Shown here: positions 5,385-22,761 of the stretch, one piece after another
Position numbering within the stretch: the stretch's first letter is position 1
Layout of the letters: each line of letters begins with the position of its first letter
From: Tepidiphilus sp. J10
GTDB taxonomy: Bacteria > Pseudomonadota > Gammaproteobacteria > Burkholderiales > Thiobacillaceae
Assembly: GCA_945897955.1 (NCBI GenBank)
Contig: CAMDGQ010000040.1
Location: 1 to 33,942 of the forward strand
Direction of reading: 5' to 3'
DNA length: 33,942 nt
The notes under the pieces: model-generated
Database searches by the model: none
Told to the model about the DNA's origin: nothing
Seen by the model: the letters and a program-made list of their open reading frames with translations, nothing else
Program-made: the position numbers and the translations under genes

Positions 5385-5441
5385 GGGTCCGGCCGGACCC
5401 GCCCGACTACGGCAAACAAGTTGAGTGGGTCTGGCACACCC
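5385..5441 (+). promoter_or_regulatory. Tandem enhancer sites for sigma-54 promoter A
   Basis: Site 1 is the perfect 16-base palindrome GGGTCCGGCCGGACCC (5385-5400). Site 2 is GGGTCTGGCACACCC (5427-5441), a GGGT-N7-ACCC form starting exactly 42 bases later. The pair begins 8 bases after the activator's stop codon, and site 2 starts 80 bases before the -24 element. The same two-site layout recurs at 9495-9551 and 22626-22682. Binding by the activator encoded at 4370-5377 is inferred. Confidence 0.75.
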
Positions 5442-5506
5442 CACCCGATCCGACCCGCACGCCGGTAACCCACTGAATCAATAGCCAATTCACCCTTTTT
5501 CCGGCT

Positions 5507-5522
5507 TGGCATGCAGGTTGCG
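5507..5522 (+). promoter_or_regulatory. Sigma-54 (-24/-12) promoter A
   Basis: TGGCATGCAGGTTGCG matches the consensus TGGCACGRNNNTTGCW with correct GG-to-GC spacing (GG 5508-5509, GC 5520-5521). Mismatches are only at the sixth, eighth and last positions. The predicted transcription start is near 5533, about 20 bases before the GAGGAGGGG ribosome site and the ATG at 5555. It would drive the small winged-helix-like gene and the KAP NTPase gene. Confidence 0.82.
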
Positions 5523-5554
5523 TAACCCCACTCATCACGTCGAGGAGGGGTGGC

Positions 5555-5782
5555 ATGCAACCGCGGGAAGAACACCTCACAGAAATCGTCGATGCCATCC
5601 TGCGCTACCTGGATAGCCACCCGGATGCCGCCGACACGGTTGAAGGCATCGCCAAATGGTGGCTGCCGGACGGCTGGTGCGCCGACACGCGCAGCGTGCA
5701 ACTGGCGCTGACCCGCATGGAAGCGCAGGGCCTGGTGCATCGGCGCATCCATACCGATCGACACGTGCTGTATTCGCGTTGA
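5555..5782 (+). CDS. Small winged-helix-like protein
   Basis: A 75-residue protein with a very strong ribosome site (GAGGAGGGG at 5542-5550). It reads as one compact winged helix-turn-helix: helix HLTEIVDAILRYLDSHPDA, then DTVEGIAKWWL, a likely recognition helix RSVQLALTRMEAQGLV, and a two-strand wing HRRIHTDRHVLYS. I do not recognise a characterised family. It is the first gene after sigma-54 promoter A and lies 55 bases before the KAP NTPase gene, so the two are probably co-transcribed. A role as regulator or adaptor for the NTPase or for the sensorless activator is possible but only inferred. Confidence 0.75.
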   Translation: MQPREEHLTEIVDAILRYLDSHPDAADTVEGIAKWWLPDGWCADTRSVQLALTRMEAQGLVHRRIHTDRHVLYSR

Positions 5783-5837
5783 TTCGCGTTGACCACAGCC
5801 TCGCCGCAACGCTGAAAAAACTCGCGCCGAGGCCGAC

Positions 5838-8800
5838 ATGAACAAAGCAGAGCCCGACTCCCCGCCCGCCAAGGCCAACAAGGTTTCCTTCGCCGACGCG
5901 CAAACCTTGCCGCCAAATGTCAGTCGCCCACATGACAGTCCCCCACATGCCAGCCCGCTGCCGGCCTGGCTGATGACGGTCGCCGGCATCGTCCTGATCC
6001 TGTCCGCCCTGGCCGGCGCCTGGTGGCAGCCGCCGCGCCCGTTCCCGCAAACGCAACCGGCGGCGTTCGCGCCCGGCGATATCGACTGGTGGCGCTACCC
6101 GCTCGAATCCAACCCCGCTCTGCGTCTGCCCGCCATTCAGGGCAAGCTGCGCGGCGTGCATGCGCTGGCGGACGGCAAGGTCTGGGTAGTCGGCGAAGGC
6201 GGCCTGATCCTGCACTCGCCGGATGCCGGCCTCACCTGGCGGCAGCAGCATCCGAAGCCGGCGACGACAGCCCCCGAAGCAACCGGCATGCACCTCCCCG
6301 GCTTGCTCGGCAAGGCTTACGCGATGGACCCGCGCCAGCAAAGCATCCTGCCGCCCGAGCCAAACATCATTCAAAACAACGCACCTATCGTGCTGCCCGA
6401 CCCGAAGCGCAGCGAACCGCTGAAGATTCCGCCGCAAACCAACACCACCAGCACCCCGCCCGCTGTCACCACACCGCCCGCCAAGCCGGCAACCAGCCCC
6501 ATCCTCAAGACGCCAGCCCGGCTGATCCCCAAATCGGTGTTCAAGCCCACGCCCAAGACCATACCCAAGACCTTTCCGAAGGCCATTCCACAGCCCGCCG
6601 CAAAACCCGCGCTGCCCAAACCTGTCGCCATCGCCCCACCGCCCGATGATGTCGAACTCCTCGGCGTGTTCTTCCAGAACGCCAATCGCGGCTGGGCGGC
6701 GGGCGATCAAGGCAAGATATGGTTCACCGATAACGGCGGCCAAACATGGCAAGCCGGCTTCGTCGGCGAGCATGCACGCATCGTCCAGATCTTTGCCGAC
6801 AACGGTTTTGTTATGGCGATCAGCGACCAGGGCCGCATATTCGGAAGTAACGGCAACGACAAAACCGCCAACACCTGGCTAGCGTTCGAACAAATGCCCG
6901 CCAGTCCGGCGACCATCGCCGCGATGCTTGGCCGCGCCAACGCGCAAGCCAGCCAGCGCAACGGCGGCATCTTCGCTACGCCCGCCGGGTTCTGGCAGCT
7001 TGGAGAAAAGGGCGAAATCCGGCACGCCAAAGACGCGCCGCAAAACTGGCAGACCCGGCCCAGCGGCACGCAAACCCCGCTTACCGGCATTGCCTTCGCC
7101 GACACCAGGCGCGGCTGGGCGGTGGGCGATGCCGGCACCATCCTGCACAGCGACGACGCCGGCCAGACCTGGCGCGCCCAGAGCGGCGGCGAGGCCGCGC
7201 TGGCCGCCCGCCGCGCCGGCGAAGAAAACCGTCGTTACCCGGCGCCGTGGACCTGGCTGATGTTGTTCCTCGGCGTCGCCCGGCTGGCCATAGGCGCGCG
7301 CCGTCTCGATCTGGCAAACGCGAAGGCACAGAACAGCACGGAAACCGCCGGCATCGCCGGCCTGTTCGTATCCGATCAGCCGCTGAAACCGGGCGAAATC
7401 GACCACCTCGGCCATGCCCGCATCGCGCGCGGCCTGGCCGACTTCATCCGCAACCGCAACACCGAACCCGGCCTGACGCTGGCGGTAACCGGCTCCTGGG
7501 GCAGCGGCAAGAGTTCCATCATGCGTCTGCTGGAAGACGACCTGAAACGCGCCGGCTTCCGCCCGGCCTGGTTCAACGCCTGGCATCACCAGCAGGAAGG
7601 TCGCCAGCTCGCGTCGATGTTCAACACCATCCGCGCCCAGGCGGTGCCGGCCATCCATACGCCTGCCGCCTGGCGCGTGCGCGCCGCGCTGTACTGGCAC
7701 CGAGGCTGGTTCTACCGGCTGCTCGCCCTCGGCGTGCTCGGCCTGTTTCTGCTCGGCTTCCTCGAAGCGCACGACCAGAAAGCGCCGCTGACGCAACTGC
7801 GCCAGGTCGTGGTCGGCGCGCTGATCGATACGCGGCCGGTAGTCATCACCTCGGCCAGCCTGGAAAAACTGAAGAAGAGCGGCGTCCTGCATCCGCATAC
7901 CCTCGCCACCCTGACCGGCAAGATGGTCTGGCAACCGCGCGCGGAAGCCGGCGAAGGCTGTCTCGAAGTGCGCGGCGAGCAAGCAGGTGATTGCCGTTTC
8001 CACAACCTCGACCAGTTGTACGCCAGCCTGGACCATGAAACGCACCCGGTCGGCCTGACCGACGAAGAAAAGCAGGCGCTCGGCGACGCCGCCCAGCACC
8101 TGGGCGACACACCGCGCGGCATGCTCGGCGTGCTGCTCGGCGCACTGGTCGTGCCGCTGCTGCTCGGCAAGGGCCTGGCCGTGTACGGCCTCAACTATCT
8201 CGACCTGTTCAAGCGCCTGCTGCCGGAACGCGGCAAGGTCGAAGGCAAGGAAGCCGTCGGCACGATGGAAAATTTCCGCAACCAGTTCTGCAACCTGACC
8301 CAGGCCCTGGACGGGCGCCTCGTGCTGTTCATCGACGACCTCGACCGCTGCGACTGCGCCACCGTGCGCGAGGTACTGGAACTGGTCAATTACCTGGTCA
8401 GCGTCGGAAAGTGCTTCATCGTGCTCGGCATGGCGATGGAACACGTCGCCTGCTGCATCGAACCGAAATCGCCCAAGCAGCAAACCGACGGCTACGCCAT
8501 GCAGTACCTGAAGAAGCTGGTCAACATCGAAGTGCCGGTGCCGAAAGCCGACCTCGGTGGCATCCGAGCCATGCTCGAAGGCCAGGCAAAGGCCGGCGAA
8601 CGACCAGTCGATAACGAACCCGCCCGGCGCTGGGCAGCCTGGAGCTTCTCCCTGCTCGTGCTGGCCGCCCTCACCTGGGGCATGCACACGACCTGGACCC
8701 AATGGCAACCGGACACCAGCCCGAAAACCTTCCTGACCGCCGCCACGCCAGGCACGACGCAGCCCGCCGCATCAACCCCGCTCGAACTCAAACCATTCAT

Positions 8801-9443
8801 CGCCGAACGAGAGCCTGACAACCCCGCCGTCGCTCCCGCCAGAAAAACCCAAGGCCCGATCGGCCTGATGCCCACAATCAAGCCGGAAACCAGCCTGTGG
8901 ACCACATGGCTCAGCCTGCTTTCAGTCGCCGCACTGATCGCCGGCGCGGGTTGGTCGACGCGCGACAAATGGCTGCACTGGCTGCACCGCCACGGCATCC
9001 TGCAAGCCATCCGCATCAAACTCGGCGGCGCCGAACGCAAACGCGACACCCCCGCCTTCCGCGCCGCGCTGGAAAGCTGGCACAAAGTCATCGTCGCCGG
9101 CGACCCCACCCCGCGCGGCATCAAACGCTTCGTCAACCGCGTCCGCTTCCTGGCAATGATGGAACAAGCCCTGGAAAGCGACCAGATCCCCGAAGGCGTC
9201 CTGGTCGGTTTGGCGGCGCTGCATCATGCCAAGGTGGATTTGCCAGAGGATATCCAGCAATTGTCAGTTAGTACCTACTGGGCTTCCATCATTGAAGAAG
9301 AAGCTGAGAAATCCGGCAAACAACCGTCGCACAGCATTCATTACGCAATCCGGGATGCCACGCAAAACACCCCGGACTGGCCGCCGACACCTCAGCACAT
9401 CGAACGATTCCTGCACATGGTCGAGTTTATGCATGTGAGGTGA
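5838..9443 (+). CDS. Membrane KAP-family P-loop NTPase with YCF48-type propeller repeats
   Basis: A 1201-residue fusion. A short cytoplasmic N-terminus leads to a membrane segment at about 44-63. YCF48/BNR-like repeats follow at about 104-138, 274-306, 315-347 and 414-446 (for example RGWAVGDAGTILHSDDAGQTW), interrupted by a Pro/Thr/Lys-rich linker (about 195-268). A second membrane segment at about 470-488 leads into the KAP domain: Walker A GSWGSGKSS (552-560), Walker B FIDDLDRCD (831-839), and a C-terminal TPRGIKRFVNRVRFL motif. Further hydrophobic segments lie near 628-648, 760-790, 933-952 and 1020-1040, as is usual for KAP proteins with inserted TM helices. The predicted topology puts the propeller outside the inner membrane and the NTPase in the cytoplasm, suggesting an envelope sensor coupled to an ATP- or GTP-driven switch. 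Function is not established. Confidence 0.85.
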   Translation: MNKAEPDSPPAKANKVSFADAQTLPPNVSRPHDSPPHASPLPAWLMTVAGIVLILSALAGAWWQPPRPFPQTQPAAFAPGDIDWWRYPLESNPALRLPAIQGKLRGVHALADGKVWVVGEGGLILHSPDAGLTWRQQHPKPATTAPEATGMHLPGLLGKAYAMDPRQQSILPPEPNIIQNNAPIVLPDPKRSEPLKIPPQTNTTSTPPAVTTPPAKPATSPILKTPARLIPKSVFKPTPKTIPKTFPKAIPQPAAKPALPKPVAIAPPPDDVELLGVFFQNANRGWAAGDQGKIWFTDNGGQTWQAGFVGEHARIVQIFADNGFVMAISDQGRIFGSNGNDKTANTWLAFEQMPASPATIAAMLGRANAQASQRNGGIFATPAGFWQLGEKGEIRHAKDAPQNWQTRPSGTQTPLTGIAFADTRRGWAVGDAGTILHSDDAGQTWRAQSGGEAALAARRAGEENRRYPAPWTWLMLFLGVARLAIGARRLDLANAKAQNSTETAGIAGLFVSDQPLKPGEIDHLGHARIARGLADFIRNRNTEPGLTLAVTGSWGSGKSSIMRLLEDDLKRAGFRPAWFNAWHHQQEGRQLASMFNTIRAQAVPAIHTPAAWRVRAALYWHRGWFYRLLALGVLGLFLLGFLEAHDQKAPLTQLRQVVVGALIDTRPVVITSASLEKLKKSGVLHPHTLATLTGKMVWQPRAEAGEGCLEVRGEQAGDCRFHNLDQLYASLDHETHPVGLTDEEKQALGDAAQHLGDTPRGMLGVLLGALVVPLLLGKGLAVYGLNYLDLFKRLLPERGKVEGKEAVGTMENFRNQFCNLTQALDGRLVLFIDDLDRCDCATVREVLELVNYLVSVGKCFIVLGMAMEHVACCIEPKSPKQQTDGYAMQYLKKLVNIEVPVPKADLGGIRAMLEGQAKAGERPVDNEPARRWAAWSFSLLVLAALTWGMHTTWTQWQPDTSPKTFLTAATPGTTQPAASTPLELKPFIAEREPDNPAVAPARKTQGPIGLMPTIKPETSLWTTWLSLLSVAALIAGAGWSTRDKWLHWLHRHGILQAIRIKLGGAERKRDTPAFRAALESWHKVIVAGDPTPRGIKRFVNRVRFLAMMEQALESDQIPEGVLVGLAALHHAKVDLPEDIQQLSVSTYWASIIEEEAEKSGKQPSHSIHYAIRDATQNTPDWPPTPQHIERFLHMVEFMHVR

Positions 9444-9494
9444 TGGGGAGTGAGTCGGACTTCAATGCTCTACATGTATGACTGCTGGCCTCCT

Positions 9495-9551
9495 GGGTAC
9501 AAATTGACCCATTCAGGATGGGAAAGTCGTTAATGTGGGTCATTCGTACCC
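9495..9551 (+). promoter_or_regulatory. Tandem enhancer sites for sigma-54 promoter B
   Basis: Site 1 GGGTACAAATTGACCC (9495-9510) and site 2 GGGTCATTCGTACCC (9537-9551) start 42 bases apart, the same spacing as at promoters A and C. Only the GGGT/ACCC arms are symmetric in site 1. Site 2 starts 81 bases before the -24 element. The pair begins 51 bases after the KAP NTPase stop. Confidence 0.75.
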
Positions 9552-9617
9552 CATGCTTAAACCTGGTTCTAATTACTAACTTATTGAAAACACGGGGAGC
9601 GCAAAGAACTAATAAAC

Positions 9618-9633
9618 AGGCACGATGATTGCA
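9618..9633 (+). promoter_or_regulatory. Sigma-54 (-24/-12) promoter B
   Basis: AGGCACGATGATTGCA fits TGGCACGRNNNTTGCW at every position but the first, and shares GGCACG-N-TGATTGC with promoter C. The predicted start is near 9644. The next convincing gene begins only at 9900, and AT-rich DNA intervenes. The promoter may therefore now read into the 9900 and beta-amylase genes, or may originally have served the genes from 12398 onward. Confidence 0.78.
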
Positions 9634-9899: not shown

Positions 9900-10574
9900 A
9901 TGGATGAAACACAATCAATGTGGTGGAAACGTATTGTTTCCCTTGCAAAAACCGCGACGGTAGTTTGTGCATTTCTTGCGTTTTCATTAAGTATGCGTCA
10001 AAAGGAAATGGATCGGTTCTCAGAGATTAAGCCATTGTTTGAGATCGACGCGCCGCATGTACAGTCATCAATCAAAATCAAGAACCATGGTGGGTTGGTG
10101 TATTTTGTAGGCATCTATCCCAATGAAAGCGGTGACGCTGTTATTTCTACTCCGCGGAAATATTCTGCACTCAGCAGCAATGCCAATAGCGAGGCAATTT
10201 TTAAGGTATCAGATCAATTAAAATTAATAGAAACAGAGGCAAACAAGGATAAAAAAAGCGAAGGAATAGTCACTTATTGGAGGGATGTTGATCTAAATGC
10301 ATATGAGGTCACGATTGTCCAGAGGAAAGACGGATACGGATATCGCATTAAGCACGTTCCGTTTTCGTTTCGTTCCAGTCTTTACATTACCATGTCAAGC
10401 AAATCGCTAGATTATATTCTGAGCAGTATTTTTCCAAAAGAGTGGTTTAGCGAGTTAGATAATAGCGTAATAGCGCAAGATAAAAGCGAAAAAAAGAAGA
10501 TGGAAAATGTATTCGATATTGACAAATACGTTTTTGAAAAAAATAACCAATTTTATATCGGAAAAGCCAGATAA
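9900..10574 (+). CDS. Membrane-anchored protein of unknown function
   Basis: I do not recognise this 224-residue protein. It has one hydrophobic segment near the N-terminus (about residues 16-32, LAKTATVVCAFLAFSL) after a short charged start, then a soluble Lys/Ser-rich domain with predicted strands (IKIKNHGGLVYFVGIYPNE), so it is probably a single-pass protein with most of its mass on one side of the membrane. The start is supported by GGAG 8 bases before the ATG. Codons are AT-rich, unlike the neighbouring KAP and patatin genes, pointing to recent acquisition together with the beta-amylase gene that follows 85 bases later. It is the first gene after sigma-54 promoter B. Confidence 0.65.
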   Translation: MDETQSMWWKRIVSLAKTATVVCAFLAFSLSMRQKEMDRFSEIKPLFEIDAPHVQSSIKIKNHGGLVYFVGIYPNESGDAVISTPRKYSALSSNANSEAIFKVSDQLKLIETEANKDKKSEGIVTYWRDVDLNAYEVTIVQRKDGYGYRIKHVPFSFRSSLYITMSSKSLDYILSSIFPKEWFSELDNSVIAQDKSEKKKMENVFDIDKYVFEKNNQFYIGKAR

Positions 10575-10659
10575 AACTAGCAACTATTTAAATGCAGCAC
10601 TCGGCTTGTCTAATTGTAACGATTTGACATTAAATTATTACTTTAATTGAACTATAATC

Positions 10660-12036
10660 ATGTTATCTTTTTTAATTCGGTTTGTTATAGCCTTTCTTAT
10701 TGTGCCCACATTTGTCGCAGCACAACCATTGACACGCCCTGCAGCGATGGCGCCATTAGAAGTGCAAGACTGGGGTGCTTTCCGATCCCAACTAACCATA
10801 GCCAAGTACATAGGCATTACCTCAATTAGTACAGATGTATGGTGGGGTAAAGTCGAGGGTGCTGGCGATGAGCAGTTCAATTGGAGTTACTACGACAAAG
10901 TAAGCCAAACTATTATTGACTCAGGGCTCAAGTGGATGCCAATTCTTTCTTTCCATCAATGTGGTGGCAATGTAGGCGACGATTGTAATATACCCATTCC
11001 CTCTTGGGTTTGGAAAAAACTGGGCCACATGCCCCCAGAACAACATAAGTATAAAAGTGAAAAGGGAAATTATTCGAACGAAGTAATCTCCCTTTGGTCA
11101 AATGATAAAGCAAGCAGACAATACATTGAATTTGTTACCGCCTTCCGTTCCCGCTACAGCATGTTATCCGAACATATAGAGGAAATAAATATTAGTACCG
11201 GCCCTTCTGGCGAATTACGTTATCCCTCGTACAACACACATGATCACTTTACCTACCCCGAACGTGGTTTTTTTCAAGCTTACAGCGACGATGCCATAAC
11301 TGATTTCGTCGGATATACACGAAATAAATACGTAACCTTGGAAAAGGTTAATGACGCCTGGGAAACCAATCTACAAGACTGGCTTGAAATTCGCCCCCCT
11401 ACGAAACCTGAAGAATTCTTTACTCAAAAAGAATATCTTAACACCCAATACGGAAAAGATTTCACCTATTGGTATAGCCAGTCTTTGTTAAAGCACGGCG
11501 CATTCATGCTTCAACTTGTAACCAATACACTTGGTTCTGATTTTTCTGGCATTCCGTTAGGAATCAAAATTCCCGGAATTCACTGGCAGATGAGTTCGCC
11601 CACGATGCCTCGCTCGGCCGAAATTACTGCTGGCCTTATTTCCACAGACAATGATATTTTCAGTGAAACCACTGGGTATGGGTATTTTCGCATTATTGAA
11701 ATGATAAAACATGCGAACACTGAACATCGTCCAGTAGTACTACATTTCACGTGCTTGGAAATGGACAACAACCCCTCTACGCCCAACTACTCGCAAGCTA
11801 AGAATTTGGTGTTTTGGGTTGACCAGGCAGCCAAGTCACAAAACATCGAAATCATGGGTGAGAATGCCTTAAGCAGTGGCGTAAAAAATGAGCGCGGTTG
11901 GGACAATATTGATAATGCGATAAGATGGGGCAGTTACCGTGGTCTTACAACCCTTCGCTTAGGCGATCTGGCAGTTGACAATAACCTTGGTTTTAAACGT
12001 TATCAACGGCTTATCGAAGACTTCAAGCCTCAATAG
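10660..12036 (+). CDS. Secreted GH14 beta-amylase
   Basis: Beta-amylase releases beta-maltose from the non-reducing ends of starch or other alpha-1,4-glucans. Glycoside hydrolase family 14 blocks are all present: STDVWWGKVE (57-66), LSFHQCGGNVGDDC (96-109), GPSGELRYPSY with catalytic acid Glu185, IPGIHWQM (304-311), HFTCLEM (362-368), and GENAL with catalytic base Glu401. A signal peptide is likely (about residues 1-21, cleavage near VAA/QP), so it is exported. The start is limited by an in-frame TGA at 10648-10650, and no good ribosome site precedes the ATG. A TTGACA (10624-10629) and TATAAT (10653-10658) flank it but are 23 bases apart and too close to the ATG for a normal promoter. Base composition is AT-rich and foreign-looking. 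Family assignment is firm; maltose-forming activity is inferred. Confidence 0.93.
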   Translation: MLSFLIRFVIAFLIVPTFVAAQPLTRPAAMAPLEVQDWGAFRSQLTIAKYIGITSISTDVWWGKVEGAGDEQFNWSYYDKVSQTIIDSGLKWMPILSFHQCGGNVGDDCNIPIPSWVWKKLGHMPPEQHKYKSEKGNYSNEVISLWSNDKASRQYIEFVTAFRSRYSMLSEHIEEINISTGPSGELRYPSYNTHDHFTYPERGFFQAYSDDAITDFVGYTRNKYVTLEKVNDAWETNLQDWLEIRPPTKPEEFFTQKEYLNTQYGKDFTYWYSQSLLKHGAFMLQLVTNTLGSDFSGIPLGIKIPGIHWQMSSPTMPRSAEITAGLISTDNDIFSETTGYGYFRIIEMIKHANTEHRPVVLHFTCLEMDNNPSTPNYSQAKNLVFWVDQAAKSQNIEIMGENALSSGVKNERGWDNIDNAIRWGSYRGLTTLRLGDLAVDNNLGFKRYQRLIEDFKPQ

Positions 12037-12040
12037 AAGG

Positions 12041-12397: not shown

Positions 12398-12985
12398 ATG
12401 GCAGATCATATTGAAGTCAAAGATATCAAGGCGCTTCCTGTTCTACCATACGTGGATGTACGCGCAAAGCTGAAGTCAGGTGACATTTTATTCACATCCG
12501 GGGACTATCTCATTTCCAAGGCCATTCAGAAAATGACCGGCAGTCCCTGGAGTCATGTGGGCATTGTTTTTCGGCTTGATTCCATTGACCGCGTGCTGTT
12601 ACTGGAAAGCGTTGAGGATATGGGAGTGCGGTTTGCCCCTTTGTCGAAATACCTCAATAACTACGAAGGTGGCAAGCCCTATAAGGGGCGTGCAGTTCTT
12701 GCCCGTTGTCAAGACGTAACAAGCGAGACCATTATTAAACTTTCCACTTTTGGAATTGACGAACTGACTCAGCCCTACGACAAGGATGAGATCGCAAAAA
12801 TAATGGCACGTATTACCCTTGGCATAGGCAGGAAGGAACGTGACCGTGAATACATCTGTTCAGAGCTGGTCTATGAATGTTTTGCACGTGCAGGAAAGGA
12901 GTTTGCTTTTAACCCCAAAGGCTTTATCAGCCCGGAAGATGTCTGGCTCGATGGAAAACTTTCTCTTGTTGGACGAGTTCTTTAG
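12398..12985 (+). CDS. YiiX-like permuted papain-fold hydrolase (NlpC/P60 superfamily)
   Basis: A 195-residue protein of the YiiX/YycO-type circularly permuted NlpC/P60-papain group. The signs are KSGDILFTSGDYLISKAIQ at 26-44, then SPWSHVGIVF with the probable catalytic His53, LLES with Glu70 as possible polar partner, and YICSELVYECF with the probable nucleophile Cys154 near the C-terminal half. His before Cys is the permuted order. Relatives cleave amide or ester bonds in lipids or in acylated or peptidoglycan-derived substrates, and the substrate here is unknown. No signal peptide is visible. GAGAGGAG precedes the ATG. It begins the run of envelope genes 12398-22600, which may once have been directly behind promoter B. 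Confidence 0.8.
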   Translation: MADHIEVKDIKALPVLPYVDVRAKLKSGDILFTSGDYLISKAIQKMTGSPWSHVGIVFRLDSIDRVLLLESVEDMGVRFAPLSKYLNNYEGGKPYKGRAVLARCQDVTSETIIKLSTFGIDELTQPYDKDEIAKIMARITLGIGRKERDREYICSELVYECFARAGKEFAFNPKGFISPEDVWLDGKLSLVGRVL

Positions 12986-13764: not shown

Positions 13765-13775
13765 GGAGAACCACC

Positions 13776-16775
13776 ATGTTCGCCAAGTTCATGATCGTGC
13801 TTTGCTCTCTGCTTCTGGCTGGCTGCGCCAGCCTGAGGGTGGATGTGGATGTCTACAAGGGGCCACTAATCAATGAGCCGGATGTGCAACTGAAACAGGT
13901 GGCGGCACAGGCCATCGCTGCGCAGCCATTGATCAGGACCATGATCGTCGATACGTATCATGGAGGTTATGACGTTAAGCCATACAAACCTTACGTGAAG
14001 GAACTTCGCACATCGCTCGAAGCGCTTGCGGACATGATCGAGCTGGACCCGCAGGTTGTATCCATCGTTAGCAAACTTGCGGCAGATTGCACCTTCGATA
14101 AACAGGCGACTCGTCTCGCGGAGTGTATCGCAATGGCCGAGGGCGAGATTGCACTACGCTTTTCCGCGCCCCAAATCCAAGCGCAATTGGTTACCGCGCG
14201 ATCCAAGCTACTTACCGATTCAAGTCCGGATGTCGACAGCATCGCCGCACATATAGGCCAAATGGCGCAAGCAGCACAAAAAGGCGGAATCGTTAAGCAA
14301 ATCAAGCTATGGGAGAGCGATCCGCGGATGCCAGAATATAAAAAGGACTTGCGCAATGATCTGGTCGAGTTCGCCGAACGCGCCAGATGGATCGGCAATC
14401 ACGCCAAGCTGTTCCTGAAGCTCTTGAATGACGAGATGGCTGGGCAAGCACAACCTTTCTCGCCTTCACCCATTGTTGAACCCAGCAGGCTTCTACGCCA
14501 GGCCATCGAAACCCATTCCCTGATCCTGCAAACCATCGGCAACTCCATCTTGAGCCAGACCAACGAAATCGAACGCATGGCGGGCTTGAACAGCGACTCA
14601 AGAAACGCACGTCTGAAAGCACGGGAACTGACGGTATGGGGTAGCGTGGGCTGGGCCAGGAACAGCGTTCTGGCTGCGGTCAAGGCGCGTAACGACACAT
14701 GGACATCATTCCCTTCACTGATCAATTCCGATTTCAAGAGTAGCCTGCTGGCCCACTTGAACGCTGCGGATAACAAGTCACTTGAAGCCATCAGCCTGTT
14801 GGGAGAATCAATCCCTCATTACCAGAAGGCGATCAAACCGTTTGATTCCGTTGCAAAAGCCTACGCAGCAACCTCGAAGCTGAACTGCGGCGGCAAACCA
14901 GAAGGAAAGCCGGCTGAACTGCTGCAAGCCTGCCTGAGTAGCGATTTCGCCGAGATGAATACGCTCCAGGACGTGCTGCTCGGGGATGGGAAGGAAATCA
15001 CCAATACAGAGGCATCTATTGCACTGAGTGCTCTGCGCACGCACCTTGAAAACTTGAAAACGAAACTTGAAGGCTGGAAGACGGACCTCGTCTTGTTACG
15101 CAACTGGAAAGCCAGCCTGGAAGGCGCCGAAATGCTGCTGCGGGGGGGGCTGGCAGGAAGTGAAGTCAAGAATCCCCGCGAAGTCATTGATCTGGGAGTG
15201 TCACGCCTGCGCGGCATGCAGGTCGAGGCAGTGCTTGCGGAAGATGCGACTCGCCGCGCGAGAATTGAGGATGCCATCCAGATACTCCTCACCCACCGGG
15301 CCGGCATGGTTCCCCTGGTGCCTTCCGCCTCCTATCTTCGCAACAGCCTGCCGGCCACCTCTCTGAGTGAAGGTATTCGGGAAAAGGATGAGGCCAACAT
15401 GCTCTGGCAAGCTTTTATCCGCGCCTTCCCTGACACGAAGGCAAACGGGGAGGAACAGATGCGCCTGGATGTAGACAAGCAGTACTGGCAGCCGGTCAAC
15501 CGTGTACGGGTAAGTGGCGGCGGCAGCGTCAACAAGGTACTGGCCAAGGACGATGTCGGCAACTGGTATGTAAAGAGCTTCGATACTGACAAGAAGGCGG
15601 TGATCGAGACCATGAAGAAACTCGCTCTCTACAACCTGGCGGGCGCCACACCCGCTCTTGGCGCCCTGCGCACCCAATTGGCCAACGCCAAGGGTCTCTC
15701 CGTGGATCAGTTGAAAATGAGTGACCTGGGCATTGGTAAAGCCATGCCGGTTTCCTCTGCGCCGATAGACAACGATCTTTTGGTGGTCACTCAACCGGCG
15801 ATCACGGAAGCCCCATCCGACGCACCCAACGGTACGGTGGCGGATGTTTACAAGGTGGTACTCACCCGTTACGGCAAGGCCTTGCAGACGACTTATCAGA
15901 CCCTGCAATGCGACACCAAAGTGGGGGATGTGAATACCGACGTGTGCGCTGATGGCAAATTGACCACGAAGGCTCAGGAGGAACTTGGCAAGATGAACTT
16001 GAAAACGCTGGATGAAGAAGTGGCCAGATTGCTGGGCGAACGGACGTCCACCTGCAAACCAGATATCGCCAATAAGTCTTGCAAAGGCACATCTCCGTCC
16101 AAACCCGCATCCGAATCTGCCAGCAGCACCAAGCTCACCAAGGCAGATATGCAGGGTCTCAGCCTGGATGAGTTGAAGTTATCTGCCGACAAGCCATGGT
16201 CCGTTGCATCGATGACCGTGAGCGACTTGTCCGTAAGTGAATTGCGAGCCATGACAGAGGCGGCGGCTGCAACGGGCAAAGAGTCGGTCTCCAAAATTAC
16301 CGGTGGAAAACTCACTGCCGCCAAGATTGAGTCCATCACCTTGAAACCGGGGAGTGTGCTGCATGCCGACCAAGTCAGCCTCATCCAGGGTAAGGCGGGC
16401 GGCATAGAGGTGCCAAAGGGCACTTATACCCAGGTCGAACTGGCAGCCCAGGCCGGGCAAGCCACATCCATTTTCCAGAGTACAGAGCAACTTGCCGACG
16501 TCCAGATCATGAGCGCGACCAGTAGCGAACAGGGCGGCAAGGTCAAATTGACCGATGCTGTGTTCAAAGGCGGGACATTGAGCAAGCCACTCTTCGGTGC
16601 CATCGCGTTCTCCGGCACCTTGATCAAAGAGAGCAGTGCCGCCGCCACGGCTAGTGGGGACGCCCCTCGCTTCGAAACACTGTCCTCTCTCATCAACAAG
16701 CAAGCCGATGCCCTCAAACGCCTCAAGAGTGATATGGAAACCCTCAGCGCATCCATCAGCAAACCCCTGCAATAG
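13776..16775 (+). CDS. Very large lipoprotein, helical, unknown function
   Basis: A 999-residue protein with lipobox LLAGC (Cys17) behind a short signal peptide, preceded by AAGGAG. The mature start RVDVDVYKGPLINEPDVQLKQ looks like a conserved motif but I cannot name the family. Residues about 30-560 are largely helical with many Leu/Ala heptad-like stretches. A mixed region near 575-620 follows (VRVSGGGSVNKVLAKDDVGNWYVKSF). The C-terminal 200 residues contain approximate repeats built on LSLDELKLS, MTVSDLSVSELRAM and KIESITLKPGSV, reminiscent of a beta-solenoid, and end in a short coiled coil (LINKQADALKRLKSDMETLS). Size and anchoring suggest an envelope scaffold or surface protein working with the neighbouring lipoprotein. 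Confidence 0.75.
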   Translation: MFAKFMIVLCSLLLAGCASLRVDVDVYKGPLINEPDVQLKQVAAQAIAAQPLIRTMIVDTYHGGYDVKPYKPYVKELRTSLEALADMIELDPQVVSIVSKLAADCTFDKQATRLAECIAMAEGEIALRFSAPQIQAQLVTARSKLLTDSSPDVDSIAAHIGQMAQAAQKGGIVKQIKLWESDPRMPEYKKDLRNDLVEFAERARWIGNHAKLFLKLLNDEMAGQAQPFSPSPIVEPSRLLRQAIETHSLILQTIGNSILSQTNEIERMAGLNSDSRNARLKARELTVWGSVGWARNSVLAAVKARNDTWTSFPSLINSDFKSSLLAHLNAADNKSLEAISLLGESIPHYQKAIKPFDSVAKAYAATSKLNCGGKPEGKPAELLQACLSSDFAEMNTLQDVLLGDGKEITNTEASIALSALRTHLENLKTKLEGWKTDLVLLRNWKASLEGAEMLLRGGLAGSEVKNPREVIDLGVSRLRGMQVEAVLAEDATRRARIEDAIQILLTHRAGMVPLVPSASYLRNSLPATSLSEGIREKDEANMLWQAFIRAFPDTKANGEEQMRLDVDKQYWQPVNRVRVSGGGSVNKVLAKDDVGNWYVKSFDTDKKAVIETMKKLALYNLAGATPALGALRTQLANAKGLSVDQLKMSDLGIGKAMPVSSAPIDNDLLVVTQPAITEAPSDAPNGTVADVYKVVLTRYGKALQTTYQTLQCDTKVGDVNTDVCADGKLTTKAQEELGKMNLKTLDEEVARLLGERTSTCKPDIANKSCKGTSPSKPASESASSTKLTKADMQGLSLDELKLSADKPWSVASMTVSDLSVSELRAMTEAAAATGKESVSKITGGKLTAAKIESITLKPGSVLHADQVSLIQGKAGGIEVPKGTYTQVELAAQAGQATSIFQSTEQLADVQIMSATSSEQGGKVKLTDAVFKGGTLSKPLFGAIAFSGTLIKESSAAATASGDAPRFETLSSLINKQADALKRLKSDMETLSASISKPLQ

Positions 16776-16889
16776 GCCCGCGTTGATTGATCCAGGAACT
16801 CCCACCAGGAAACCAATGCAGCCCCGTGCGGGTTTCCATCACCCTGTTTCATCACCCACATTACCCGTCACCAATACCTTGGAGAAATC

Positions 16890-18251
16890 ATGGCCCACCC
16901 TTACTACCTGATTACCGCCGAGCCCAGGAAACTCGCCAAGATCGCCAAATATGCCCGCAGCCTGACCGGCAGCAAACAGGGTGATCCGGTGCATGTCGTC
17001 GGTTCGCATCGCATCGTGCTGATGCCAGTGGCGGTTGGGAAGATGCTCGACAACGCAACTGAATCCATTGATCCGGCGCGTCCGAACACATTCGAGGGCA
17101 TCGTTCAATCGATGGGCGCGCAAGGCGCGGCGGCGATCAGCGCGGAACGTCTGCGGGAACTGCTGGCGGCGCGTGCGCCGGAGGAGTTGGGCATCCCCCG
17201 AGACATGCCCAAGTCCGGCGACCTGGTCATCGACGGGGTTGACTGGCATATCAAACGGACGCGCCTAGTGGAGGCCTGGGCTTTGCTGGGCGGCCCGGAT
17301 GCGATCGACTGGCAAGACGTGCGCGTCGGGCAGATCGATACAGGTTTTCGCCCCATCCCCTGTCTGGGCTTTGGTCCGGACGGCACATCCGGCTTCGTGC
17401 TGATCGACTTCGACCGGAACTTCTTTCCCGGCGATTTCAATCGCGATGACCATCTGGATTACGGCACTACGCTGAGAAGCGCGGACTCCGCGCTGGACCC
17501 GCTGCTGGGTGGTGCCTTCGACGGTCATGGCACCCGTACCTCCAGCGTGCTGGCTGGCCGCGACGAGGCTCAGGTGTATTTTGGGGCGGCGCCGCGTGTG
17601 CCTTTCATCCCGGTGCGGATCAGCGACAGCGTCATCGTCAATCATGTGCAGACGCCGTTGGCGCAGGCCATCGAGCATCTGGCCGGGCATGGTTGCGGCG
17701 TCATCACGCTGAGTATGGGCATGGCGCTGACCTACGTCACCGACCGCCTCCGGTCCGCCATCGATTACGCCTATGAGCAAGGCGTGATTCTGGTCACGGC
17801 GGCAGGCAATGTCTGGGATCCGGTGGTCTATCCCGCCCGCCTGAATCGCACGCTGGCCGTCGGCGGCTGCACGCTGGCGATGACGCCCTGGCTGGGCAGC
17901 AGCTTCGGCCCTGAAGTCGATCTCTGCGCGCCAGCCTGGCCGATCCGTCGGGCCACCGTGGACCGAGCTGGAAATCCGGAATACGGCCATGGCGACGGCA
18001 CTTCCTTCGCCACGCCGCAGGTGGCCGGCACGGCGGCGCTGTGGTTGCGCTATCGGGACCAGGAGATACGTGACCTCTATCCGCATAAGTGGCAGCGGGT
18101 AGAAGCCTTCAAACGCATCGTCACCAGTACCACCCAACCCGGTACGGAATGGAATCGCAACCTGTATGGCGCCGGCATTCTGGATGCGGAAGCCGCGCTC
18201 AAGGCCGAACTACCGGCGCCCGCGAGTCTGATCAAGGACAACAATGCCTGA
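16890..18251 (+). CDS. S8 subtilisin-like serine protease
   Basis: A 453-residue subtilase with an intact catalytic set: Asp150 in QIDTG, His213 in DGHGTRTSS, oxyanion Asn307 in TAAGN, and Ser372 in DGTSFATPQVAG. Residues 1-140 precede the catalytic domain and may act as a propeptide or regulatory part (MAHPYYLITAEPRKLAKIAK). No signal peptide is visible, so it is either cytoplasmic, released by lysis, or exported by a non-Sec route. GGAG at 16881-16884 supports the ATG. It follows the large lipoprotein by 114 bases and precedes the patatin gene by 281. Such leaderless subtilases also occur as proteolytic switches in bacterial conflict systems, but nothing here proves that role. Confidence 0.92.
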   Translation: MAHPYYLITAEPRKLAKIAKYARSLTGSKQGDPVHVVGSHRIVLMPVAVGKMLDNATESIDPARPNTFEGIVQSMGAQGAAAISAERLRELLAARAPEELGIPRDMPKSGDLVIDGVDWHIKRTRLVEAWALLGGPDAIDWQDVRVGQIDTGFRPIPCLGFGPDGTSGFVLIDFDRNFFPGDFNRDDHLDYGTTLRSADSALDPLLGGAFDGHGTRTSSVLAGRDEAQVYFGAAPRVPFIPVRISDSVIVNHVQTPLAQAIEHLAGHGCGVITLSMGMALTYVTDRLRSAIDYAYEQGVILVTAAGNVWDPVVYPARLNRTLAVGGCTLAMTPWLGSSFGPEVDLCAPAWPIRRATVDRAGNPEYGHGDGTSFATPQVAGTAALWLRYRDQEIRDLYPHKWQRVEAFKRIVTSTTQPGTEWNRNLYGAGILDAEAALKAELPAPASLIKDNNA

Positions 18252-18532: not shown

Positions 18533-21500
18533 ATGCAACACACGCAAAACCAGAACCAAGAACTCGAACCCGAGGAACTGAGGAGGACGCTGGAAGGACT
18601 CGGTTTGCTCGAATCGCCGGTCAAGCCGGGGGACGAGTTCAAGGTGCATGTTGCGGCCTCCAGCGCGGAAGAAATCGAGAATGCGGTCAACCGGCTGCGC
18701 GAGTCATTTGGATGGGAACCGCATGGCCAGGTGACGCAGAACACCTTGCGTGCGATCCGCATCCAGGTGGCTGCGTTGCAACGCAAGCTGGCGGCGCACG
18801 GGTGTTACCAGGGCGAGGCGCATGGTCGCTTCGATGAAGACACACGGCTGGCGTTGGTGCAGTTTCAGGCCGGACATGCCGATCAGTGCCTTGATCAAAC
18901 CGGCATACTGGACGCGGCCACCCGCGCCGTGCTGAAGGCTTTGCCGCCGTATACCTTCGACGAGGTTCTGGCCTCGGAACTGGATGCGGTGAACAAAAGC
19001 CGCGGCGAAACCGGGCAAAACCCGGAAAAGGATGCGGCCGAGTCCGACAACGCGGTGGTGCGCGCGCATCAGGCCAGGCTGATGGGTTTGGCGTTCTCCG
19101 GCGGCGGTATCCGCAGCGCCACTTTCAATCTGGGCATTCTGCAAACGCTGGCACGTCTTGGGTTGTTGCGCCGGGTGGACTATCTTTCCAGCGTTTCCGG
19201 TGGCGGCTACATCGGCAGTTGGCTGCACGCCTGGGTAAAACGCGAAGGCGGCGACATCCGGAAGGTGGAAAGCCGGCTGGCGGTCCAGCCTGGCGCCGCG
19301 CTGCATGAACCGCGGCAGGTGTCATGGCTGCGCCAGTACAGCAACTATCTGACGCCGCGCATCGGCCTGCTCAGCGCCGACACCATGGCCGGCATCGCCA
19401 CCTGGCTGCGCAATGTGCTGCTCAATCAGGTCATTCTCGGCGCGTTGGGCCTGGCGGTGCTTTGTGTGCCGTGGATTCTGTTCATGCTGACACCCGAGTG
19501 GCGGGATGGCATGGCGTTCTCGGCGATGCTGGCCGGCGGCGGCGCACTTTTGCTGCTGGCGATGGGCGTCGGCGTCATGGAAACCCGGGCAATCCGGCGC
19601 GATATAGCCACCGATATTGCTACCAGCAAAACGGCGACTGCCTCCTTCGATCCGGCTTGCCGCCATCGAAGAGCCAAGGTGGTGATCGCCAGTGCAGCCA
19701 CGAGCGCGCTGCTGCTCGGCCTGGTTCTACCATTCGCGCTGGAGATTGAGTTGGAGCAAGCCTTTCAACGCATGTCTTTGATCGTGCTGGGTCCGCCCGG
19801 CGTGCTGCTTGCGCTGTTGCTCGGCGTGACCCTCGGCATCGGCCTTGCCGGCAGGCAATTGCGCGAGGCAGCGCGTGAATGGTGGAGTCGCGTCGGAGGC
19901 ATACTTCTGACCATGCTGCTGGGCTGGCTGGCGCTGGACGGCGTCGCACTGCTCGGCGGTTACGCACTGATTTACGTGGGCGAATGGGTCAGCGCCATGG
20001 GCGGCATCCTCTGGCTGGTCACCACGATTGCCGGCGTGGTTCTCGGCCGCAGTTCCGCTACCGGCAACGAAAATGGCAAATCAAAGGGCGGCTGGAAGAA
20101 CCAGATCGCCACCCTCGCGCCCTGGGTCTTCGTGGCGGGCCTGCTGATCCTGCTTTCGCTGGCCTTGCACACGAGCACGATCAATCTCGGCGGAGCTGCC
20201 GGCATCCAGGTCTGCAATCCGACGCCGGACAGGTCCGACCCCGGCCTGCTCGCCACTTATCGCTTCAACCTGGAAACCGGCAAGGAGTCGGCCGTCACTC
20301 GCGGCGAGGTATTGCAGGTCAAACCCGATCCGGGTTGCAGTATTGCCAGCTATGCGCGGCAGGCGGAACAGGCGGTTTCGAACGCGCCCTTCTTCTTGCT
20401 CTGGCCATTTGGATTGGTGCTTCTGGCCTCACTTCTCGGCTGGCGCGTCGACATCAACGTGTTCGCCTTCCACATGTTCTACCGCAACCGGCTGGAACGC
20501 TGCTACCTGGGGGCCAGCAACCCGAAGCGTCGTGCCAACCCGTTCAGCGGCCTCGACATGTCCGATTCGCCCCGCCTGGACGAGCTCAAGCACGCCGGCC
20601 ATGTGCAGCGCCCGTATCCGCTGATCAACACCGCGCTGAACATCGCGCGCTCGAAGAATCTGGCCTGGCAGGAACGCAAGGCCGCTTCCTTCCTGTTCAC
20701 GCCGGAATTCTGCGGTTACTCGCTGCCGGGCATCAGCGATGCCGGGATTGCCGCCTATCAGAAGACCGAGCAGTTTCTGGCGCCGCCGGAGAAAGCGGGC
20801 AAGCCGGGCGCCAGATCAGGCTGGCTGGGGCTGGGCACGCCGATGACCATCTCCGGCGCGGCGGCCAGCCCCAACGCCGGGTATCACACCAACCCGGCCA
20901 CCGCGTTCCTGATGACCGTGTTCAACGTGCGGCTGGGCTGGTGGATACAGAACACCCGCAAACTCGACAACTGGATCAAACCCGGTCCCCGGCAATCCAT
21001 CGGTTACCTGCTCAAGGAACTGCTGGCAAACACCAAAGACTCCGACGATTTCGTCTATGTCAGCGACGGCGGCCATTTCGAGAACCTGGGCATCTACGAG
21101 CTGGTACGCCGCCGTTGCCGCTACATCATCGCCTGCGATGCCGGCTGCGATCCAAACTACACGTTCGAAGACCTGGGCAATGCCATTCGCAAATGCCAGA
21201 TCGACCTCGGCGTCGAGATCAGGATCGACCCCGCCGCCATCGTGCCCGACCCGGAAACCGGTCGCAGCCTGTTCCACTGCGCGGTGGGCACGATTCATTA
21301 CGAACAGCGCGATCCGGTTGCCACGCCCGGATATCTGCTCTACATCAAGGCCTCGCTGAGCGGCAACGAACCGAGCGACATCAAGCAATACAAGGCCGAA
21401 CACAGCGCCTTCCCGCACGAAAGCACGGGCGATCAGTGGTACAGCGAATCGCAGTTCGAGAGCTATCGCAAACTCGGTCAGCATGTGGCCGAGCAGGTGC

Positions 21501-22600
21501 TGCAACAGGCACGCGACGATGCCGCCCGGCACAGCCTCGCGGCAAGCAGGCAAAACGCCGTCGGTTCAGCTCGGTCGTGTGACCTGGAACTGTTCTTCCA
21601 CACGCTGTCCGAGCAGTGGTATCCGCCCAGCGACGCGAGCCGTGCGGCCTTTTCAAGGCACGGCATCGAACTCGAAAAGATCTACGACCGCATGCGCCTG
21701 GACGCCAATCTGCGCTTCCTAGACAGCCAGATCTATCCGGAATGGGTGAAGCTCTCGAATCGCGTCAAGCCGGAGCCGAATCAAGCCCAGCAGACCATGT
21801 TCCCCGTCAGCGGGAACGAACTGAGAGCCGGCTTCTACCTGTGCAACACGCTCATCCAGCTGATGGAAAACGTCTATACCGACCTGCATCTGGAAGAAGA
21901 GCACGCCCATCCGGACAATCGAGGCTGGATGAACCTGTTCCGTCACTGGTCATGGTCCGGCATGTTCCGCGTCACCTGGGCGGTTTGCGTCGCCACCTAT
22001 GGCGCGCGCTTCCAGCAGTTCTGCCGTCGCACACTCGGTCTGGAAAGCGGCAAGTTGACGCTGGGGAACAGTGTCATTGTGGGCAGCGCAGGTTGGGAAA
22101 GCAGCATCAACTTCCTGGAAGTCGAACACATACAGCGCATCATCGCGGGCGGATACGCCGGATCGGCAAACGCGCTTGAAAGCCTGAACAAGGACAGGAT
22201 CGCCGAAATCGCCAACCAATGGATACGCAGTCAGAGCAGCATGCAACTTCAGGTGCAGCCGCTGGAAATTCGGGTCAGCGACCCCTTCGGCAAGGAGCCG
22301 GACTTCGAATTTCCGGTGGGTTTCGGGCTGCTGAAAAAATCGGATACTGGGCCTGAGTACAGCTTGGCCTACTACCGCATTCAGGACCATCTGCGCCGCA
22401 TGGGACTGGGTCGCGAGGGCCTGCGCAAACTACAGGAAAAATACACTGGCATTTATGTCGACCTGCCACTCGGCCTGACCCGGGTCATTCACGAAGCAGA
22501 GCCTGATAAATTGCAAAACCTGTGGCATCTGGTGCTCTGGAGCAACCCGGCAGCCAAGAGAAAAGATCTCGGGCAGTCTGTATTCACGCATGCGCAATGA
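18533..22600 (+). CDS. Patatin-like phospholipase with peptidoglycan-binding and multi-TM regions
   Basis: A 1355-residue protein. Near residues 75-137 is a PG_binding_1-type domain (LQRKLAAHGCYQGEAHGRFDEDTRLALVQFQ read in parts). The patatin lipase core follows, with oxyanion loop GGGIR (190-194), nucleophile Ser222 in SVSGGG, and catalytic Asp845 in SDGGHFENLG. Between nucleophile and Asp, roughly 295-550, lie about seven hydrophobic segments, plus one near 617-635, so the lipase fold is split by a membrane domain. The last 350 residues contain no domain I recognise. Patatin-like enzymes hydrolyse acyl chains from phospholipids. Usual bacterial patatins are 300-400 residues, so this is an unusually elaborate form. 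GGAG 7 bases before the ATG supports the start; the ATG at 18528 is out of frame. Confidence 0.9.
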   Translation: MQHTQNQNQELEPEELRRTLEGLGLLESPVKPGDEFKVHVAASSAEEIENAVNRLRESFGWEPHGQVTQNTLRAIRIQVAALQRKLAAHGCYQGEAHGRFDEDTRLALVQFQAGHADQCLDQTGILDAATRAVLKALPPYTFDEVLASELDAVNKSRGETGQNPEKDAAESDNAVVRAHQARLMGLAFSGGGIRSATFNLGILQTLARLGLLRRVDYLSSVSGGGYIGSWLHAWVKREGGDIRKVESRLAVQPGAALHEPRQVSWLRQYSNYLTPRIGLLSADTMAGIATWLRNVLLNQVILGALGLAVLCVPWILFMLTPEWRDGMAFSAMLAGGGALLLLAMGVGVMETRAIRRDIATDIATSKTATASFDPACRHRRAKVVIASAATSALLLGLVLPFALEIELEQAFQRMSLIVLGPPGVLLALLLGVTLGIGLAGRQLREAAREWWSRVGGILLTMLLGWLALDGVALLGGYALIYVGEWVSAMGGILWLVTTIAGVVLGRSSATGNENGKSKGGWKNQIATLAPWVFVAGLLILLSLALHTSTINLGGAAGIQVCNPTPDRSDPGLLATYRFNLETGKESAVTRGEVLQVKPDPGCSIASYARQAEQAVSNAPFFLLWPFGLVLLASLLGWRVDINVFAFHMFYRNRLERCYLGASNPKRRANPFSGLDMSDSPRLDELKHAGHVQRPYPLINTALNIARSKNLAWQERKAASFLFTPEFCGYSLPGISDAGIAAYQKTEQFLAPPEKAGKPGARSGWLGLGTPMTISGAAASPNAGYHTNPATAFLMTVFNVRLGWWIQNTRKLDNWIKPGPRQSIGYLLKELLANTKDSDDFVYVSDGGHFENLGIYELVRRRCRYIIACDAGCDPNYTFEDLGNAIRKCQIDLGVEIRIDPAAIVPDPETGRSLFHCAVGTIHYEQRDPVATPGYLLYIKASLSGNEPSDIKQYKAEHSAFPHESTGDQWYSESQFESYRKLGQHVAEQVLQQARDDAARHSLAASRQNAVGSARSCDLELFFHTLSEQWYPPSDASRAAFSRHGIELEKIYDRMRLDANLRFLDSQIYPEWVKLSNRVKPEPNQAQQTMFPVSGNELRAGFYLCNTLIQLMENVYTDLHLEEEHAHPDNRGWMNLFRHWSWSGMFRVTWAVCVATYGARFQQFCRRTLGLESGKLTLGNSVIVGSAGWESSINFLEVEHIQRIIAGGYAGSANALESLNKDRIAEIANQWIRSQSSMQLQVQPLEIRVSDPFGKEPDFEFPVGFGLLKKSDTGPEYSLAYYRIQDHLRRMGLGREGLRKLQEKYTGIYVDLPLGLTRVIHEAEPDKLQNLWHLVLWSNPAAKRKDLGQSVFTHAQ

Positions 22601-22625
22601 GGAGGAAGACGCGCCGGGATGCCCT

Positions 22626-22682
22626 GGGTTGAAATCAACCCGGATTAACTCGATTGATCGAGGCATGGGGTGTTTATTACCC
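22626..22682 (+). promoter_or_regulatory. Tandem enhancer sites for sigma-54 promoter C
   Basis: Site 1 GGGTTGAAATCAACCC (22626-22641) is symmetric except at its centre. Site 2 GGGTGTTTATTACCC (22668-22682) lies inside a longer inverted repeat, GCATGGG/CCCATGC. The starts are 42 bases apart, and site 2 starts 78 bases before the -24 element, matching promoters A and B. The pair begins 26 bases after the patatin gene stop. Confidence 0.77.
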
Positions 22683-22745
22683 ATGCATGTGCGAATGGAG
22701 TTCGCCAAATGGTTGAAATCAAGAGGGGATGGAAGTTTTTCAACA

Positions 22746-22761
22746 TGGCACGCTGATTGCT
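22746..22761 (+). promoter_or_regulatory. Sigma-54 (-24/-12) promoter C
   Basis: TGGCACGCTGATTGCT agrees with TGGCACGRNNNTTGCW at every fixed position except the purine at position 8, with correct spacing (GG 22747-22748, GC 22759-22760). It is the best of the three. The predicted start is near 22772, about 100 bases before the ATG at 22876. It would drive the secreted HExxH gene and possibly the genes through 28553. Confidence 0.87.

Follow-up and report, generated by a model that had tools for sequence, protein, structure and literature searches.

Sigma-54 promoters carry a -24/-12 consensus, and the canonical loop of their activators is GAFTGA. PspF, one such activator, has AAA+ and helix-turn-helix (HTH) domains only, and in type VI secretion a contractile apparatus is placed under a dedicated sigma-54 activator of the VasH/VCA0117 type. 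In the available sections of PMC3709507, two upstream activating sequences (UASs) for PspF are described upstream of the sigma-54 promoter at Escherichia coli pspA, and PspA, made from that promoter, restrains PspF. For extracellular contractile injection systems (eCIS), GerE, a regulator of the GerE/LuxR type, has been presented as the first conserved regulator (Geller et al. 2021, PMC8213781). The main text of that paper contains no words beginning with sigma, and no paper on sigma-54 control of eCIS was found by title or abstract opening among sources outside subscription. In the literature so covered, the switching-on of eCIS production appears little explored. The present analysis concerns contig CAMDGQ010000040.1 of Tepidiphilus sp. 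J10, the whole of which (33,942 bp; hereafter the window) was analysed. Three of its intergenic spacers share a switch of two palindromic sites and a predicted sigma-54 promoter, likely bound by the activator encoded at 4370-5377, and with a probability of roughly 80% this switch defines a predicted regulon that comprises hydrolase operons here and, in relatives, eCIS operons too. The elements of the switch and the two candidate regulators are as follows.

4370-5377, + strand: sensorless sigma-54 activator, 335 residues (PF00158, 4.8e-63; PF02954, 1.3e-5; orthologues)
5385-5400, strandless: unit 1, site 1, GGGTCCGGCCGGACCC (N8 scan; counterparts in orthologous spacers)
5427-5441, strandless: unit 1, site 2, GGGTCTGGCACACCC (N7 scan; counterpart in orthologous spacers)
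5507-5521, + strand: unit 1, -24/-12 element, TGGCATGCAGGTTGC (promoter-pattern match; orthologous spacers)
5555-5782, + strand: winged-helix protein of 75 residues, first gene of unit 1 (homologue matches, AlphaFold2, PDB fold search)
9495-9510, strandless: unit 2, site 1, GGGTACAAATTGACCC (N8 scan; spacer comparison with genome G002)
9537-9551, strandless: unit 2, site 2, GGGTCATTCGTACCC (N7 scan; spacer comparison with G002)
9618-9632, + strand: unit 2, -24/-12 element, AGGCACGATGATTGC (promoter-pattern match; spacer comparison with G002)
22626-22641, strandless: unit 3, site 1, GGGTTGAAATCAACCC (N8 scan)
22668-22682, strandless: unit 3, site 2, GGGTGTTTATTACCC (N7 scan)
22746-22760, + strand: unit 3, -24/-12 element, TGGCACGCTGATTGC (11 of 11 consensus positions)

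In each unit, GGGT-N8-ACCC is followed by GGGT-N7-ACCC at an offset of 42 bases (42, 42 and 42), and the -24/-12 element starts 80, 81 and 78 bases past the start of the second site in units 1, 2 and 3. These coordinates, offsets and promoter distances reproduced exactly the three paired arrangements described in an earlier note on this stretch. The elements TGGCATGCAGGTTGC, AGGCACGATGATTGC and TGGCACGCTGATTGC are the window's three best matches to TGGCACG-N4-TTGC; all have the -24 GG and -12 GC at fixed spacing, and they place the sites about 90-150 bp upstream of the expected transcription start. The unit 2 spacer aligns with its G002 counterpart at 80% identity across 276 columns; other genes follow it there, i.e., the predicted promoter is kept and the cargo changed.

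Dinucleotide shuffles gave 0.32 N8 and 0.37 N7 sites per window, or about one per 92-106 kb, making a single site somewhat rarer than the once per 65,000 positions assumed in the earlier note. Its claim that the pairs are not due to chance was borne out: 2000 first-order Markov sequences contained no pair of any kind 30-60 bases apart, and the reversed pattern had no match in the window's own genome. A chance origin was rejected on the basis of this simulation. Copying of a mobile repeat into the three spacers was likewise rejected because their best cross-match is 19 bp long (E 0.03) and covers the -24/-12 element, with nothing longer in common. Beyond the similarity itself nothing was found in favour of either origin, and we consider both together to be of negligible probability.

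The own assembly (G000) comprises 3.9 Mb in 128 contigs, one of which (C40) is the window, and is 92% complete. The genome-wide scan suggested in the earlier note was run on it; the only exact N8 sites with an exact N7 site 16-36 bases further on were the three in the window, and relaxed patterns added two units. One is a fourth exact pair at C57:16299-16356, found when site 2 could be N7 or N8, with a promoter and with genes for a papain-like C1 protein, a patatin-like protein and an N-acetylmuramoyl-L-alanine amidase behind it. The other, at C9:16855, has two mismatches, an 11-of-11 -24/-12 element at +80 and a matrixin/astacin-like peptidase gene downstream. The own genome is thus predicted to hold at least five units. 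A further single place from the two-mismatch search (C15:16695, offset 43), without a promoter, was taken as chance.

Across genomes, N8 was required in site 1 and N7 or N8 in site 2, at offsets of 40-46. Pairs were found in 11 of 117 genomes of the family, namely 10 of 23 in the window's genus and 1 of 94 elsewhere, where the single pair sits inside a short repeat; the reversed-pattern control matched in 2 of the 23 genus genomes. The 22 distinct genus pairs (10 genomes) have offsets of 42 (12 pairs), 43 (nine) or 44 (one). A -24/-12 element with at least 9 of 11 positions lies 50-110 bp downstream in 21 of 22 pairs, with 12 N8/N8 pairs oriented by the promoter side and the promoter present in 9 of the 10 pairs whose orientation is fixed by the pattern. 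The element lies at 78-81 in 17 of the 22. On the opposite side of the pairs a promoter was found once in 22, and random windows gave such an element at a frequency of 0.012 over 50-110 bp and of 0.0005 at 78-81. Computationally, the earlier note's picture of a single regulon built on enhancer pairs and sigma-54 promoters finds strong support in the contrast between genus (10/23) and remaining family (1/94) and in the co-occurrence of pairs and activator described below.

The fixed N8-then-N7 order stated in that note holds in the window's three units and fails in relatives; as 12 of the 22 genus pairs are N8/N8, it was rejected as a rule. Base counts over 34 N8 sites extend the pattern to GGGTC-N6-GACCC (C in 23/34, G in 24/34), which is the predicted general operator, with N8-then-N7 a local form of it. 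A single site plus promoter matched in 14 of 23 genus genomes, and the control matched in two. Matches in G003, G012 and G014, which have no activator, and one of three in G021 (C10) appeared by eye to be repeat or coding sequence and were not counted. At L177 (G021 C18:1441), a lone site is followed by TGGCACGCGGCTTGC, a possible extra unit.

The activator consists of an AAA+ domain (PF00158, residues 10-176, 212 bits) and a C-terminal Fis-type HTH (PF02954, residues 285-325, 25.2 bits against a cut-off of 22); as the AAA+ domain begins at residue 10, there is no recognised N-terminal sensor. Its loop reads GAYTDA (residues 85-90), and GAYTDA or GAFTDA is present in 14 of 14 aligned activators. 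Orthologues with 59-86% identity occur in 11 further genus genomes, i.e., 12 of 23 including the own genome. Exact pairs with the short spacing were found in 9 of the 12 genomes with the activator (≥ 59%) vs. 1 of the 11 without it. In the latter, G004 (77% complete), 271 bp of contig remain past the pair on the activator's expected side. An activator without an exact short pair is present in G001, G015 and G007; G001 and G015 have two sites before sheath operons (in G015 with one mismatch each). Members of the activator family were also found in 27 of the 34 named loci of the winged-helix gene described below, 24 of them with KERRxLGKL[L/I]K in the HTH. On this distribution, the activator is the most likely binder of the palindromes. 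The distant activators at L126, L130, L132 and L046 have 142-179 open-frame residues before the AAA+ domain, without a Pfam match; this stretch is possibly an unknown sensor that was lost in the window's genus.

The earlier account of unit 1 did not mention the gene directly behind the predicted promoter (5555-5782), whose start codon lies 34 bp past the -12 GC. Its 75-residue product was modelled by AlphaFold2 as a winged helix (H-H-H-E-E; mean predicted local distance difference test score, 88), and its closest structural neighbours in the PDB are winged helices of the Fur/MarR type (best E 6e-3). Matches were found in 22 of 121 genomes searched and at 34 named loci, of which 11 are within the window's genus and 23 outside it; titles among the latter include Accumulibacter, Propionivibrio, Methylococcales, Marinobacter, Neptunomonas, Stenotrophomonas, Cupriavidus and Variovorax. 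In the 400 bp upstream of the gene, 22 of the 34 loci, including 12 of the 23 outside the genus, carry one exact site or more, vs. 1.6% of 17,463 control stretches.

Several loci show variants of this arrangement. In Accumulibacter L117 (10531), the winged-helix gene lacks upstream sites, and the interval between the winged-helix and sheath genes holds a second promoter, TGGCACGAGCCTTGC, preceded at 89 bp by one exact site. At L036:7723 (G006 C29), the promoter-like CGGCACGCGGCTTGC, with an exact site 80 bp upstream, lies between the winged-helix gene and a papain-like gene. Winged-helix relatives at L070 and L071 (G019 C16, G022 C35) are near matches to other sigma-54 activators, which suggests a wider pairing of activator and winged-helix genes.

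eCIS genes are often neighbours of the winged-helix gene. Relatives of the sheath, tube, Pvc16 or baseplate genes lie ≤ 10 kb from it in 22 of 34 loci: outside the genus, 21 of the 23 loci have them (the exceptions being L107 and L126), and inside the genus 1 of 11 does. The sheath gene is the next gene after the winged-helix gene in Neptunomonas and Marinobacter. Sheath matches were obtained in 12 of the 23 genomes of the window's genus, 11 of them exceeding the family cut-off. Among 13 regions inspected in these genomes, the sheath operons of 8 of the 12 (G001, G002, G004, G005, G010, G015, G019 and G022) have two sites, with at most one mismatch each, and a -24/-12 element in front of them. 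The sites in G002 and G015, with one mismatch, are spaced 42-43 bases apart, and the exact sites in G001, G004, G005, G010, G019 and G022 are spaced 80-91 bases apart. Exact long-spaced pairs followed by TGGC occurred in 6 of 23 genomes, all at those six sheath operons (the G004 match lies on the opposite strand), with no match in the control. Pfam identified Pvc16_N, sheath, gp19 tube, CIS_tube, baseplate hub and OB domains in G002, and confirmed parts of the eCIS structural set in chosen proteins of G005, G015, G019 and G022. A caspase-like C14 gene lies between promoter and sheath gene as the first operon gene in G005 and G019 (Pfam), and another C14 gene follows a short pair elsewhere in G002. 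Among the caspase-like first genes of the sheath operons L156, L157 and L158, that of G010 is added by a 37% match. Compared with the earlier note, the predicted regulon thereby gains a winged-helix gene, a connection to eCIS and a total of at least five units in the own genome.

Our results are consistent with the following mechanism. Fis-type HTH dimers would bind two palindromes about four helical turns apart and seed an AAA+ hexamer, which DNA looping would bring to the sigma-54 RNA polymerase at the -24/-12 element. With no recognisable sensor domain, the activator would have to be controlled through a partner or through its expression level, and the winged-helix protein would be the best candidate partner. 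A spacing of 42-44 appears to serve the hydrolase units and two of the eight two-site sheath operons, and a spacing of 80-91 the other six. In the probable ancestral arrangement, the activator gene was followed by enhancers, promoter, winged-helix gene and eCIS operon, an order close to that of Neptunomonas.

Several observations weigh against this interpretation. No exact upstream site was found in 12 of 34 winged-helix loci, comprising 8 of 9 Accumulibacter loci, L121 (= G015), L133, L134 and L136; in those eight Accumulibacter loci, AGCACGA-N3-TTGC lies 47-67 bp before the winged-helix match instead. G007 has the activator and no pair was found in it, G001 has a single exact site before the winged-helix gene, and the pair at G021 C251 is the one of 22 without a promoter. 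In G005 (96% complete), the sheath operon has two exact sites and a promoter, yet neither the activator nor the winged-helix gene nor a matching HTH was detected. The sheath genes of G006, G011, G012 and G017 showed no two-site promoter ahead of them; the sheath regions of G012 and G017 matched no eCIS query and may be phage genes. The sheath-operon filter also returned four other places, one being the G022 site read backwards and three having mismatched sites only. In the own assembly, a search limited to two families found neither the PF04984 sheath nor the PF14065 Pvc16 protein (the Pvc16 search had no match in any control genome either); this may reflect loss or an assembly gap, both of which fit, and the eCIS part of the interpretation consequently rests on relatives. 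The case named in the earlier note as refuting, genes kept without the paired sites, was seen in G007, in G015 (activator and winged-helix gene kept, no exact sites before the latter) and in the eight Accumulibacter loci, and not in most genus genomes with the activator, 9 of 12 of which have exact pairs.

That no sheath was detected in the own genome, which keeps the regulator along with five or more predicted units, also speaks for a different reading, in which the switch would govern a general sigma-54 regulon for exterior hydrolases and the eCIS association would reflect co-inherited mobile gene blocks without any injection function. G018 (71% complete) and G021 (93%) likewise have pairs and no sheath match, and several targets appear metabolic or secreted (beta-amylase, alpha-amylase and PhoD phosphatase). 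This reading does not account readily for the sites and promoter at sheath operons in 8 of 12 sheath-bearing genomes, for the sheath gene directly after the winged-helix gene in Neptunomonas and Marinobacter, or for a caspase-like family with members in eCIS operons as well as in a dispersed unit, and we regard it as rather unlikely. We propose only tentatively, as something somewhat short of an even chance, that one regulon across Beta- and Gammaproteobacteria, under a dedicated sigma-54 activator, couples injection machines with unlinked peptidases, lipases and amylases, that the operator tags genome-wide the distant genes by which the machine is armed or prepared, and that the window's lineage has lost the injector and kept the command and the arsenal.

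The identity of the binder is open to another reading. The palindromes could be operators of the 75-residue winged-helix protein, acting as a repressor or co-activator, with the activator using other or weaker sites. The predicted fold is of a DNA-binding type, and the winged-helix gene co-occurs with the sites about as closely as the activator does: G007, with the activator, has neither the winged-helix gene nor pairs. The activator, which the earlier note had called the obvious binder, is accordingly only the most likely one, all the more as neither gene was detected in G005, which has two sites at its sheath operon. Nevertheless, site presence also tracks the activator (9/12 vs. 1/11 genomes), the winged-helix gene is kept without sites in 8 of 9 Accumulibacter loci, and the sites lie about 90-150 bp upstream of the expected start, a position that is usual for sigma-54 enhancers and unusual for a repressor. 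Pairs of constant spacing also suit an activator with HTH dimers, as with the two UASs of PspF at pspA in the available sections of PMC3709507. We therefore consider binding by the winged-helix protein improbable and retain the activator as the predicted binder.

On this comparison, PspF/pspA is the nearest worked example. The AAA+/HTH architecture and the two-site sigma-54 promoter are alike, as is a gene behind that promoter for a partner (PspA for PspF) or candidate partner; here that gene, in the place of pspA, encodes a winged-helix protein. The targets differ, the PspF operator is not that of the window, and the activator failed the PspF equivalog models of NCBI (TIGR02974, 232.2 of 443.55 bits; NF008622, 197.9 of 529 bits). 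Identity with a known activator was dropped, with no cut-off reached among the best 25 of 28 matching NCBIfam models. The relatives' loci resemble reported eCIS loci in their structural families (sheath, gp19 tube, Pvc16, CIS tube and baseplate) and in having a regulator gene beside the operon; the regulators reported in the accessible literature are of the GerE/LuxR type, whereas here the predicted regulators are a sigma-54 activator and a winged-helix protein. The predicted dedicated activator of a contractile apparatus resembles type VI secretion with VasH, from which the present case differs in its eCIS-type apparatus and would differ in activator architecture, operator and partner gene. 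The cargo of eCIS is usually sought beside the structural genes. Two copies of GGGTC-N6-GACCC with a -24/-12 element form a searchable operator for genome-wide prediction of eCIS control and cargo, and this operator already flags caspase-, papain-, patatin-, matrixin-like and amylase genes away from detected eCIS. If the interpretation is true, it could offer a way to find genes that work with injection machines. The two spacings, 42-44 and 80-91 bp, also present a natural comparison of enhancer pairs under one activator family.

The remaining genes of the window's units are given below; the extents of the transcription units are predicted, and unit 2 is listed on the assumption that it runs to 22600.

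5838-9443, + strand: KAP-type P-loop nucleoside triphosphatase with YCF48-like/BNR repeats, 1201 residues, presumably unit 1 (PF07693, 2.4e-27; PF14870, 4.6e-12)
9900-10574, + strand: protein of 224 residues without a family match; by eye, one probable membrane segment
10660-12036, + strand: beta-amylase-like glycosyl hydrolase family 14 (GH14) (PF01373, 4.6e-113)
12398-12985, + strand: permuted papain-like amidase, C92 (YaeF/YiiX) (PF05708, 9.4e-14)
13156-13764, + strand: lipoprotein-like protein (by eye) of 202 residues, no family found
13776-16775, + strand: lipoprotein-like protein (by eye) of 999 residues, no family found
16890-18251, + strand: subtilase S8 (PF00082, 4.3e-26)
18533-22600, + strand: peptidoglycan-binding and patatin-like protein, 1355 residues (PF01471, 2.9e-13; PF01734, 6.8e-6)
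22876-23568, + strand: Cys-rich HExxH peptidase-like gene, split (open reading frames 22876-23214 and 23242-23568)
23667-25115, + strand: VCPO/PAP2-like protein, possibly unit 3 (PF22778, 2.3e-22)

The neighbour position of the KAP-type gene is kept in G002. The patatin match in 18533-22600 (26.8 bits) is just below its cut-off of 27.7, and relatives of this protein were found at L044, L091, L092 and L113. The first gene of unit 3 is split by an in-frame TGA at 23212-23214, with HExxH just past the stop; neither piece had a Pfam match, and the TGA may indicate a pseudogene, an assembly error or recoding.

Among the scanned targets besides eCIS, hydrolases appear largely to prevail. Within about 6 kb behind pairs, the survey, which applied Pfam to chosen downstream proteins and left out the genes behind G017 C166 and G010 C46, found papain-like, patatin-like and caspase-like proteins, CHAT with TPR-S, alpha-amylase and M15, as well as PhoD, GDSL, trypsin-like, reprolysin-like and alpha/beta-hydrolase proteins. 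A Tle1-like phospholipase lies behind the winged-helix gene of G015, where exact sites are lacking. A literature search on sigma-54 with caspase and patatin returned nothing relevant.

GH14 beta-amylases are mainly a plant family; the gene at 10660-12036 lies in a bacterial genome, and relatives of that genome carry the titles Betaproteobacteria and Hydrogenophilales. The window also contains two lone sites. An N7 site, GGGTTTCCATCACCC (16830-16844), directly precedes the subtilase gene and has no promoter match. An exact N8 site, GGGTGAAAACCAACCC (25284-25299), lies about 75 bp before a lipoprotein-like open reading frame (25374-26669) and is accompanied by neither another exact site nor a good -24/-12 element.

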